A DNA stretch of 41,175 bases from Bacillota bacterium (GTDB lineage: Bacteria; Bacillota; Clostridia; Oscillospirales; Oscillospiraceae), in contig JALFUQ010000021.1 in NCBI GenBank assembly GCA_022784505.1, positions 1 through 41,175 of the forward strand. The letters are read 5' to 3'. Shown here piece after piece: positions 10,376-40,506 of this stretch (positions are counted from its first letter, which is position 1; the number at the start of each line of letters is the position of its first letter). The notes under the pieces are model-generated. The model saw nothing but the letters and a program-made list of their open reading frames with translations, was not told the DNA's origin and made no database searches. A program made the translations under genes and the position numbers.

Positions 10376-10451
10376 GCGGGCATAGCTCATCCGGTAGAGC
10401 GCCACCTTGCCAAGGTGGAGGTAGCGAGTTCGAGTCTCGTTGCCCGCTCCA
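10376..10451 (+). tRNA. tRNA-Gly (anticodon GCC)
   Basis: A complete 76-nt cloverleaf: acceptor GCGGGCA/TGCCCGC, D arm GCTC..GAGC, anticodon stem CCACC/GGTGG around loop TTGCCAA, T arm GCGAG/CTCGT with TTCGAGT, discriminator T and an encoded CCA. It has its own promoter and terminator. Confidence 0.97.
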
Positions 10452-12892: not shown

Positions 12893-12968
12893 TGGTCGGA
12901 GTGGGGAGACTTGAACTCCCGGCCTCTTGGTCCCGAACCAAGCGCGCTACCAACTGCGCTACACCCCG
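12893..12968 (-). tRNA. tRNA-Pro (anticodon CGG)
   Basis: A minus-strand 76-nt cloverleaf: acceptor CGGGGTG/CACTCCG (one G-T), D arm GCGC..GCGC, anticodon stem CTTGG/CCAAG around TTCGGGA, T arm GGGAG/CTCCC with TTCAAGT, discriminator A and an encoded CCA. The CGG anticodon reads proline CCG. Confidence 0.97.
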
Positions 12969-36636: not shown

Positions 36637-38673
36637 ATGGAGAAGGTTATAGTTGCAAAAAGCGCAGGCTTTTGCTTTGGTGTGAGCAGGTCTGTCGATA
36701 TGGCCGAGGAGCTTTTGCTTGACGGCAATGCCTATTGCCTTGGCCAGCTTATCCACAATGACGACGTTGTAAATGCCCTGGCGGCAAAGGGCCTCGGCGT
36801 TATAAACAGCCCCGATGAGTTGCCGGAAGGTGCAAGAGTCATGATCCGTTCGCACGGCGTTGCCAAGAGCGTATACAATGCGCTCGAGAGCAAAAACGCA
36901 GTCATAATCGATGCGACCTGCCCTAAGGTAAAAAAGATACATGAGATTGTGTCGAAGGCGAGCGGGGACGGCCGCTTTGTCGTCATCATCGGTATGCACC
37001 ATCACCCCGAGGTCGAGGCGGTGTGCGGCTGGTGCGGCAAGCATACCGTATGTGCAGACGCATCCGAGCTGGAATCATTTTTTGATGAGTGGACAGATTT
37101 ATCGGCAAAAGCAATAACCATGGTTATTCAAACGACGCAAACTCGTACTAATTTTATAGAATGTTCGAATTTCTTAAAAAAAAGATGTACAAACGTAGAA
37201 ATATTTGATACAATATGTGGCGCAACATCCATGCGTCAGAAGGAGGCCGCAAAACTGTCGGTCGAATGTGATGCAATGGTCGTGATAGGCGGCCGGCATA
37301 GTGCCAATAGTGTACATCTTGCCGAAATTTGCAGGCAGGAATGCGACAACGTCCAGTTTGTCAACAATGCGGAAGAAGTTGACTTGGACAGGCTCAAAAA
37401 TGCCCGCACCGTCGGTGTCACGGCAGGCGCATCCGCTCCTGCATGGATAATTAAGGAGGTAAGTAACAAGATGAGCGAAGAAATCAAAATTGATGCAGCC
37501 GCAGCAGAAGAGAAGGAGATGTCCTTCGACGAAATGCTGGAGGACTCCATCAAAACTATATATAATGGAGATAAGGTGACTGGCGTTGTCGTTGCTATTA
37601 CCGGCACTGAGATAAGTGTCGATATCGGCACAAAGTACTCGGGCTTCATTCCCACCACCGAGTTCACCGATGACGGCATCAAGGTCGAAGACGCTGTCAA
37701 GGTCGGCGATGAGATCGAGGCAGTCGTTGTCCGCGTCAACGACGTTGAAGGCACCGTTATGCTTTCCAAGAAGCGCCTTGACGCAGCCAAGAGCTGGGCA
37801 GCAGTTGAGAGCGCTGTTGAAGACGGCACTATCCTTGAGGGTGTTGTCACCGAAGATAACAAGGGCGGTATCGTCGTCAATGTCAAGGGTGTAAGAGTTT
37901 TCGTTCCTGCATCCCAGTCTGGTCTGCCCAAGGATGCCGAGATGAGCCAGCTGCTCAAGCAGAAGGTTCGCGTTAAGATCACTGAATTCAACCGTGCACG
38001 CAAGCGCGTTGTCGGCTCTATCCGCGCCGTCGCTCAGAAGGAGCGCCGTGAGCGCGCAGAGGCTATCTGGAACGAGATCGAGATCGGCAAGAAGTATCAC
38101 GGCGTTGTCAAGTCCATGACCAGCTATGGCGCATTTGTCGACATCGGCGGTATCGATGGCATGGTCCATGTCTCCGAGATGAGCTGGAGCCGCATCAAGA
38201 ACCCCGCAGAGGTGTTCTCTGTCGGCGACGAAGTTGATGTTTATGTCATCAACTTCGATAAGGAAAAGCGCAAGATATCCCTTGGCTACAAGGATCCTGC
38301 CGAGGATCCCTGGGCAAAGTTCACCGCTGCATATGAGGTCGGTTCCACTGCTGAGGTCAAGATTGTCAAGCTCATGACCTTCGGCGCATTTGCAGAAGTT
38401 CTCCCCGGTGTTGACGGTCTTATCCACATCTCTCAGATCGCAAACCGCCGCATCGGCAAGCCTGAGGAAGTTCTTTCTGTCGGCGATGTTGTCGAGGCAA
38501 AGATCACCGCTATCGACAATGAGAACCACAAGATCTCTCTGTCGATCCGCGCTCTTTCCGAGCCCGCTCCCGCAGCTGAGCCTGTTGAGGACGAGCCCGA
38601 GTCCGGCGAGGACGCACTCGTTTATGAGGTCTCCACGACCGGTGAAGCCACCGGCAAGATTGTCGAAGACTGA
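36637..38673 (+). CDS. ispH: Fused HMBPP reductase (IspH) and ribosomal protein S1
   Basis: A 678-residue fusion. Residues 1-278 are IspH, the last MEP-pathway enzyme (HMBPP to IPP and DMAPP), with the three [4Fe-4S] cysteines C13 (AGFCFGV), C95 (DATCPKV) and C194 (TICGATS) close to the E. coli positions, plus RSHG and HHHPEV. Residues 280-678 carry four S1 RNA-binding repeats (e.g. GAFVDIGGIDGMVHVSEM, GAFAEVLPGVDGLIHISQI). This fusion is known in Clostridia. The track's start is 25 codons too early; GGAG lies 8 bases before ATG 36637. The S1 half has stronger codon bias than the IspH half, and an internal ribosome site and ATG sit exactly at the junction. Confidence 0.96.
   Translation: MEKVIVAKSAGFCFGVSRSVDMAEELLLDGNAYCLGQLIHNDDVVNALAAKGLGVINSPDELPEGARVMIRSHGVAKSVYNALESKNAVIIDATCPKVKKIHEIVSKASGDGRFVVIIGMHHHPEVEAVCGWCGKHTVCADASELESFFDEWTDLSAKAITMVIQTTQTRTNFIECSNFLKKRCTNVEIFDTICGATSMRQKEAAKLSVECDAMVVIGGRHSANSVHLAEICRQECDNVQFVNNAEEVDLDRLKNARTVGVTAGASAPAWIIKEVSNKMSEEIKIDAAAAEEKEMSFDEMLEDSIKTIYNGDKVTGVVVAITGTEISVDIGTKYSGFIPTTEFTDDGIKVEDAVKVGDEIEAVVVRVNDVEGTVMLSKKRLDAAKSWAAVESAVEDGTILEGVVTEDNKGGIVVNVKGVRVFVPASQSGLPKDAEMSQLLKQKVRVKITEFNRARKRVVGSIRAVAQKERRERAEAIWNEIEIGKKYHGVVKSMTSYGAFVDIGGIDGMVHVSEMSWSRIKNPAEVFSVGDEVDVYVINFDKEKRKISLGYKDPAEDPWAKFTAAYEVGSTAEVKIVKLMTFGAFAEVLPGVDGLIHISQIANRRIGKPEEVLSVGDVVEAKITAIDNENHKISLSIRALSEPAPAAEPVEDEPESGEDALVYEVSTTGEATGKIVED
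37186..37214 (+). promoter_or_regulatory. Possible internal promoter for the S1 part
   Basis: TGTACA (37186-37191), 17 bases, TGA-TACAAT (hexamer 37209-37214) in an unusually AT-rich patch (about 37130-37225) inside the IspH coding part, about 260 bases before the internal ATG. Confidence 0.4.
37453..37473 (+). promoter_or_regulatory. Internal Shine-Dalgarno and in-frame ATG for free S1
   Basis: AAGGAGGT (37453-37460), a full anti-SD match, is 10 bases before the ATG at 37471. That ATG is in frame (codon 279) and would yield a 400-residue protein of four S1 domains (37471-38673). Confidence 0.65.
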
Positions 38674-38689
38674 TAATTCAACAAAATGT

Positions 38690-38724
38690 AATTGCCTGCT
38701 GGCTTGTCAGCAGGCAATTTTTAT
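38690..38724 (+). terminator. Terminator of ispH-S1
   Basis: AATTGCCTGCTG, loop GCTTGT, CAGCAGGCAATT, followed by TTTTATTG. Confidence 0.9.
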
Positions 38725-38816: not shown

Positions 38817-39290
38817 TTGTTTGTTATCGGTGATCACATCGTTCACCCGATGCACGGCGCAGGCATCATTGAAAATATAGTCAGCAGGAGAATCAGCGGT
38901 GATGAGCGAGATTATTATGTCCTGAAGCTCCCCGCGGGGGATATGGTTGTCATGGTTCCTGTCGATGGCTGTGAGAATATTGGCGTAAGACCCGTCATAA
39001 GTCATGACGAGGCTGTCGGCATTCTTGATTCTTTCCCTAAAATTGAAGTAAACATGACGCAGAACTGGAACAAACGGTACAGAGAGAATATGGATAAGAT
39101 CAAAAGCGGCAATCTGCTCGAGGTCGGCGAGGTCGTAAAGGGACTTATGTGCCGAGACCTTGAGCGTGGCCTTTCGACAGGTGAGAGGAAAATGCTCCAT
39201 TCAGCAAAACAGATCCTCATCTCCGAGCTCGTTATCGCACTTGATACTGATTATGACCAGGTCGAGCAGAAACTCAGCGCGGCCATCTGA
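38817..39290 (+). CDS. carD: CarD family transcriptional regulator (TTG start)
   Basis: A 157-residue protein. The N-terminal FVIGDHIVHPMHGAGIIENI and the following YYVLKLPAGDMVVMVPVDGCENIGVRPV form the RNA-polymerase-interacting domain shared with TRCF/Mfd; the C-terminal half is helical. In other bacteria CarD/CdnL binds the RNA polymerase beta subunit and steadies open promoter complexes, especially at rRNA promoters. The start is TTG with GGAGGG 6 bases upstream. It lies 11 bases before ispD, in the same operon, a frequent arrangement of carD with ispD and ispF. Confidence 0.93.
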   Translation: MFVIGDHIVHPMHGAGIIENIVSRRISGDERDYYVLKLPAGDMVVMVPVDGCENIGVRPVISHDEAVGILDSFPKIEVNMTQNWNKRYRENMDKIKSGNLLEVGEVVKGLMCRDLERGLSTGERKMLHSAKQILISELVIALDTDYDQVEQKLSAAI

Positions 39291-39301
39291 CAGAGGTAAT
39301 T

Positions 39302-40036
39302 ATGTCTGTAATTGATAAGTTTTTTAAGTTTAAGTCCAATTCCGTCGATTTCTGCTCGGCTGTGATCGTTGCTGCGGGCAATTCGCAGCGCATGGGCAGG
39401 GACAAGATAATGATGCCCCTTGGGGACAGACCGGTCATCGCACATACGCTGGCAGCATTCGAAAATTGCGAGCATATTGACGAGATCATCGTTGTCACGC
39501 GACCTGAGCGGCTTCAGGAGATAGCGGATATCTGCCAGAAGTATCACATCGATAAGATCAGCAAGATAATCGTCGGTGGCAAAACCAGGGCGCAGTCGGC
39601 ATATCTGGGCGTTTTGGAAGCCAACGAGAAGGCGACACTTATAGCGATACATGACGGGGCACGCCCGTTCGTGAGTGAATCGCTCATTGACAGAGCGGTC
39701 AATTCCGCAAAGCAAAACCATGCAGTCGCTCCGGCTGTTTATGCTACCGATACCGTAAGGATAGTTAACGCAAAGGGCGTTGCAGTTTCTACACCGAACA
39801 GGGAAACGGTCGCACATATCCAAACTCCGCAGGTGTTTAATGCAGAGCTTATCAAAAATGCGCTCACAAAGGCGGTCAAGAACAACCTGCGCATCACCGA
39901 CGACTGCTCGGCGGTTGAGGCGATGGGCGTTAAGGTTACTGTCGTCGCCGGTGAGCAGACTAATATTAAGCTGACCTCTGCAATAGATGCATATCTTGCC
40001 GAAAAGATCCTTGCAGACAGAGGTACGGATAAATGA
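39302..40036 (+). CDS. ispD: 2-C-methyl-D-erythritol 4-phosphate cytidylyltransferase
   Basis: A 244-residue MEP-pathway enzyme that attaches CMP to [20 protein letters not shown] is the CTP-binding loop with catalytic Arg and Lys, VVTRPER and [10 protein letters not shown] are family signatures, and [13 protein letters not shown] and [11 protein letters not shown] complete the site. The first 18 residues ([18 protein letters not shown]) are longer than usual, but AGAGGT lies 4-6 bases before this ATG. The stop overlaps the ispF start (ATGA). Confidence 0.96.
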
Positions 40037-40506
40037 GAATTGGTCACGGATATGATGTCCACAGGCTCGTCAATGGCAGAAAGCTCATACTCGGCGGCGT
40101 TGAGGTAGAGTACGAAAAAGGTCTGCTCGGTCACTCCGATGCCGATGTTTTGACCCATGCGCTGATGGATGCGCTTTTGGGCGCGGCAGCATTGGGTGAT
40201 ATAGGCAAGCTCTTTCCCGATAATGACGACGCATTTTTAGATGCTGACAGCGTTAAGCTCTTAAAAAAGGTGTGCGCGGTGGTGAAAGAGCATGGCTACA
40301 AGCTCTGCAACGCCGACTGCACGATCATTGCGCAGCGCCCGAAGCTGGCGCCGTTTATTGATAAAATGCGTGAAACTCTTGCGTCGGCAATGGATGTGCC
40401 GGTTTCGGCGCTGAGCATTAAGGCAACGACCGAGGAAAGGCTCGGCTTTACAGGCGAAGGACTCGGCATAGCAGCTCACGCCGTTTGTTTAATTGAAGAA
40501 ATTTGA
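40033..40506 (+). CDS. ispF: 2-C-methyl-D-erythritol 2,4-cyclodiphosphate synthase
   Basis: A 157-residue trimeric zinc enzyme that cyclises CDP-ME-2-phosphate. GHGYDVHRL gives the Asp and His zinc ligands, [31 protein letters not shown] is the family signature, and [22 protein letters not shown] ends the active site. It overlaps ispD by 4 bases. With ispH in the neighbouring unit, three MEP steps lie within 4 kb. A mobile-element-like repeat begins 11 bases after the stop. Confidence 0.98.

Follow-up and report, generated by a model that had tools for sequence, protein, structure and literature searches.

Sequence evidence for a probable ribosomal protein S1 gene nested within the ispH-rpsA fusion of Clostridia

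The ispH-rpsA fusion gene and its junction

The window analyzed here, that is, the whole stretch of DNA of 41,175 nucleotides, contains an ispH-rpsA gene whose reading frame is continuous over positions 36637-38673, with no stop codon at the junction of its two parts. The encoded protein satisfies the domain order of IspH-RPS1 fusions, with a LYTB domain (residues 4-279 of the fusion in the Pfam match) in first place and, in the same frame, four S1 domains after it, encoded at 37567-37773, 37819-38025, 38077-38292 and 38335-38550. The LYTB match was the only one in the genome, which is 97.7% complete, indicating that there is no other ispH gene. Frameshifting or readthrough at the junction was discarded as unneeded, the frame being open here as in the 249 fused genes analyzed below. 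The main features of the gene are as follows:

36637..38673 (+): ispH-rpsA fusion reading frame, 678 aa, 73.5 kDa; Pfam LYTB plus four S1 domains
36646..37473 (+): IspH (LYTB) domain, Pfam E-value 6.5e-91; the match stops at the internal ATG codon
37453..37460 (+): internal Shine-Dalgarno (SD) sequence AAGGAGGT
37471..37473 (+): internal start codon ATG, in frame, codon 279 of the fusion, at the IspH/S1 boundary
37471..38673 (+): predicted nested rpsA, encoding free ribosomal protein S1 of 400 aa, 43.4 kDa, pI 4.8
38690..38719 (+): terminator-like hairpin of 13 pairs with a T-rich tail, located after the S1 stop codon and ending the unit

The upstream gene, cmk, ends one base before the ATG of ispH. 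Directly after the fusion gene, positions 38817-40506 hold a gene of the CarD family with a TTG start, ispD and ispF, so that three genes of the isoprenoid pathway are clustered at the fusion locus, beside cmk. Rfam matched nothing in the window except two tRNA genes, at 10376-10448 (+) and 12896-12968 (-).

The codons at the border of the two parts read ATT AAG GAG GTA AGT AAC AAG ATG, and the spacer between AAGGAGGT and the ATG of codon 279 is 10 nt long, AAGTAACAAG. A preliminary description of this DNA had proposed an SD sequence 10 bases before an in-frame ATG at codon 279, right at the IspH/S1 boundary, and had pointed to a stronger codon bias in the S1 half; every position was confirmed, and the effective number of codons (Nc) drops at the border from 56.8 in the IspH part to 35.6 in the S1 part. 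The SD AAGGAGGT occurs as a single copy in the 41-kb window when both strands are scanned, and only 6 of 1774 in-frame ATGs located elsewhere in fused genes are preceded by an SD this good. The association of SD and ATG in ispH-rpsA is thus more than a product of chance. A second AAGGAGG is found inside ispH, at 37240-37246 (in the stretch encoding RQKEA); no in-frame ATG lies at a distance that would work, and the site forms no peak in the conservation scan described below.

The predicted minimum free energy of the 50 nt around the internal ATG was 0.0 kcal/mol, to be compared with -11.9 ± 3.6 kcal/mol along the gene, and the start region was less structured than the average of its gene in 92% of 100 fusions; the low GC content of this stretch explains part of its missing structure. 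The internal SD averages 7.5 matched nucleotides, as against 4.0 for the best one at the start of ispH itself. The codon-bias step recurs among relatives, with the S1 half being the more biased in 93.5% of 245 fusions. The contrast was drawn within the fused gene and not against the other ribosomal proteins of the genome. It fits with a heavier translation of the S1 half, and would not be given by a single full-length product.

Conservation of the internal Shine-Dalgarno sequence and start codon

Loci of ispH-rpsA were gathered by a scan of GTDB genomes and by whole-genome searches within the genus, order, class and phylum. From these, 249 loci of Clostridia and neighbouring classes were truly fused in one frame (the split locus L206 was left out). 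Lack of conservation of the SD or the ATG at synonymous sites would, according to the preliminary description, have refuted an internal start; the test was run, and the in-frame ATG with its SD was found in 248 of the 249 fusions. The SD reads AAGGAGGT in 175 of them and GAGGAGGT in 49, and L143 carries AGAGGAGGT and the ATG. The GAGG core lies 11 nt from the ATG in 234 fusions and 8 nt in 13; the remaining one, L094, was incomplete in the distance count, although AAGGAGGTA...ATG is present in it. As the two spacings, 8 and 11 nt, are one codon apart, the fusion frame is kept in both. The lone exception is L297 (G370:C1:1353200-1355700), which has no internal ATG and whose junction reads GAAGAGGTGGTAAAACATCTGGAAGAA; internal initiation may have been lost there or have moved to another codon.

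The preliminary description had also cautioned that part of the SD match could be imposed by the residues KEV at the end of IspH. Codon counts in 170 divergent representatives point in the opposite direction. Glu is encoded by GAG in 169 of them, 68.8 being expected from the usage of each gene, and wherever the preceding residue is Lys its codon is AAG (113 out of 113, versus 58.7 expected). That residue is itself variable (K in 113, E in 41, R in 6 and Q in 5 of the 170), and G is the third base of its codon in 164 of these 165 cases (AAG, GAG, CAG or AGG, with one AGA). It is therefore the nucleotides that are held and not the amino acid, since the codon of the varying residue still keeps the SD. 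In addition, the stand-alone ispH genes of the phylum that were examined end without a KEV-type tail. A protein-driven origin of the SD was ruled out on the basis of the codon counts and of the K/E/Q/R substitutions that preserve it.

Conservation at synonymous sites was scanned over the full length of the gene in 171 divergent fusions, with representatives picked to share less than 15% of their 10-mers, and two peaks emerged. One covers codons 273-279 (37453-37473), that is, the SD and ATG, with a z value of 12.0; the other covers codons 187-193 (37195-37215) within the IspH part, with a z value of 11.4. Outside Oscillospirales these values were 10.6 and 5.7, respectively. The z values are scaled on the variation among windows within a gene and include no correction for the common descent of the sequences. 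As judged from the genomes compared, conservation of the SD and ATG is phylum-deep and that of the second block, which corresponds to the putative promoter described below, is restricted to certain clades.

In a few lineages the two genes are split. The frame between ispH and S1 is broken in L202, L206, L265, L266 and L277-L279, and in all of them a start codon in the S1 frame follows the same SD inside the end of ispH, being ATG in L202, L206 and L277-L279, and GTG in L265 and L266. That the same SD precedes the S1 start where the frame is broken indicates that the SD/start pair is likely the start of separate S1 genes in these relatives. In L265, L266 and L277-L279, rpsA starts inside the 3' end of ispH in another frame, which makes them overlapping genes with no fusion. 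Loci L207, L260 and L261 were split by other routes.

A putative promoter within the ispH coding sequence

At and around the second conservation peak, the sequences are arranged as in a promoter:

37174..37185 (+): A-rich tract TTAAAAAAAAGA, UP-element-like, upstream of the -35 and conserved within the order; its function is inferred
37186..37191 (+): -35 hexamer TGTACA, found as TGTACA in 46 and as TATACA in 19 of 84 representatives of the order
37206..37214 (+): extended -10 TGATACAAT, with TACAAT at 37209-37214
37221 (+): transcription start, inferred only, ca. 7 nt past the -10; the position is approximate and there are no 5'-end data

The hexamers TGTACA (4 of 6 matches) and TACAAT (5 of 6) are separated by 17 nt, within the 16-18 nt spacing of sigma-A promoters, and a TG one base upstream of TACAAT generates an extended -10. 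The -10 region reads GATACAATA, a synonymous version of which would be GACACCATC. These elements stand in a patch (37081-37215) with 29.6% GC, in contrast to 53.8% upstream and 54.7% downstream. The preliminary description had reported TGTACA, 17 nt and TACAAT in an AT-rich patch of the IspH coding part, which is what the DNA contains, and had tentatively taken them as a promoter. A consensus scan of this sequence alone yielded 4 promoter-like sites in 2.8 kb, compared with 2.4 ± 1.4 in shuffled sequences, which is not above chance, and a promoter call from the consensus alone was dropped. For this reason, the case for the promoter rests on comparison. TACAAT is present in 122 of the 158 representatives of all lineages that encode D/N-T-I-C at this place, versus 28.2 expected. 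Among the Oscillospirales representatives, 74 of 84 carry TACAAT, with the A-tract upstream and a 17-nt spacer that is variable in sequence. The promoter sequence is also found in three loci with a separate S1 gene, L202, L206 and L207. Many lineages that retain the SD and ATG lack the block or have it in an altered form. A promoter inside ispH, although predicted and not mapped, has strong comparative support limited to Oscillospirales and several other clostridial lineages.

It could be argued that only the internal start works and that the AT-rich block is a binding site or some other DNA or RNA element. The imperfect -35, the chance-level result of the single-sequence scan and the absence of the block from many lineages with the SD and ATG would be compatible with this. 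However, the A-tract, the hexamer, the 17-nt spacer free to vary in sequence and the extended -10 stand in the order of a promoter, and no Rfam family matched at the block or in the leader, so that a known RNA element there was discarded. An element other than a promoter is considered unlikely.

A probable free S1 beside the fusion, and its relation to known systems

Other explanations concern the SD and ATG themselves. SD-like sequences within genes have been proposed to slow elongation, and the one studied here sits precisely at the border between domains, where a programmed pause could assist the folding of IspH or the receipt of its cluster without any initiation taking place. A pause, however, requires neither an ATG at a fixed distance of 8 or 11 nt, nor an unstructured start, nor an internal promoter, and does not account for the same SD lying before the start of a separate S1 gene in the split relatives, which makes this explanation very improbable. 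Even less tenable is the idea that SD and ATG are a relic of formerly separate genes, or a by-product of the KEV residues, in a gene with a single bifunctional product, as the annotation has it. The full-length fusion of C. thermocellum, expressed in E. coli, was indeed active when purified (Rao et al. 2015, PMC4746011), and the fusion frame is retained in nearly all relatives. Over the depth sampled, however, the synonymous sites of a relic would have decayed, and yet GAG is found in 169/170 and AAG in 113/113 cases; the SD stays when the residue changes, and stand-alone ispH genes lack the tail. A fusion relic was accordingly ruled out by the depth of conservation.

The explanation that best accounts for these observations is a nested rpsA gene, from which a free S1 of 43.4 kDa would be made alongside the fusion of 73.5 kDa; in the absence of expression data, we give it a probability of about 0.9. 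Ribosomes would bind AAGGAGGT, inside the ispH part at its 3' end, and initiate at the ATG of codon 279 to produce the 400-residue S1, and initiation at the weak start site of ispH would produce the fusion of 678 residues. A sigma-A-type promoter in the ispH coding sequence, with TGATACAAT as its -10, would add, in this organism as in many relatives, an S1-only transcript ending at the terminator behind the gene. The level of an abundant RNA-binding protein would in this way be uncoupled from that of a low-abundance Fe-S enzyme, with some of the enzyme still joined to S1. What the sequences show is the elements themselves and that they are conserved more than codon choice would require, a start region predicted to be unstructured, the change in codon bias at the border and the SD before split S1 genes. 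Activity of the start site and of the promoter in cells, the coexistence of the two proteins and the proportion between them are inferences. Ribosomes translating the upstream ispH part might disturb internal initiation. Because the frame is kept in most lineages, we infer that cells also make the fusion and benefit from it. Fusion-carrying Clostridia would very probably make free S1 too, rendering the usual one-protein annotation incomplete.

Clostridia, among them species of the gut, very commonly carry a fused ispH-rpsA gene, and its product is annotated as a single bifunctional protein. If these genes do yield free S1, such annotations miss a separate ribosomal protein, and the idea that every S1 carries IspH onto the ribosome is wrong. 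The puzzle of a low-level enzyme fixed 1:1 to an abundant ribosomal protein would also be resolved, as there would be no such 1:1 ratio, and ongoing expression of S1 would have to be taken into account when the ispH part is targeted by knock-down or deletion. Retention of the fusion frame beside a full nested gene raises the question of the role of the fused fraction. A speculative reading, to which we attach little likelihood, is that the dual output acts as a regulator, the internal promoter and start setting the ratio of IspH-joined to free S1 on ribosomes and the Fe-S enzyme reporting the redox state to translation. Were this true, an oxygen- or iron-sensitive enzyme would ride on a fraction of the ribosomes, and selection would act jointly on the nested start and on the intactness of the frame.

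The IspH-RPS1 'Rosetta stone' fusion has been described, with one example purified, and treated as one bifunctional protein (Rao et al. 2015, PMC4746011). It is the same fused gene, with the same domain order and the same kind of host, anaerobic Firmicutes; 'internal' and 'Shine' are not among the words of the main text of that paper, and in contrast to its one-protein description, a nested S1 gene is evidenced here at the level of sequence. Carriers of the fusion were stated there to have no other rps1 gene. Six genomes, all of family f38 (G039, G065, G089, G111, G133 and G151), are at odds with that statement, as they contain a second S1-like gene, separate from the fusion. No report of an internal start in ispH-rpsA was found in the literature searched, with many subscription papers outside reach; a proteomics paper on C. 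cellulovorans held nothing on it, and the ispH-rpsA junction was not discussed in the portion available to us of a Ribo-seq and transcription start site paper on C. ljungdahlii (PMC6203783).

In-frame internal starts giving shorter proteoforms are known for infB (IF2 alpha/beta), cheA and clpB (cited in PMC11005335). The likeness lies in one gene and one frame with two start codons and two proteins. In those cases, however, the short form is a truncated version of the same protein, whereas in ispH-rpsA it would be a ribosomal protein in its own right, complete and different in function; a putative internal promoter is a further addition in many clades. In the cmk-rpsA operon of E. coli, promoters of rpsA lie inside the upstream gene. 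The placement of an rpsA promoter within an upstream coding sequence is common to both systems, but in E. coli that sequence is cmk and the genes are separate, whereas in ispH-rpsA the predicted promoter is inside the reading frame of the product itself. Both the fusion and in-frame internal starts were known, and what is new is a whole, functionally different ribosomal protein predicted to be nested in a class-wide enzyme fusion.
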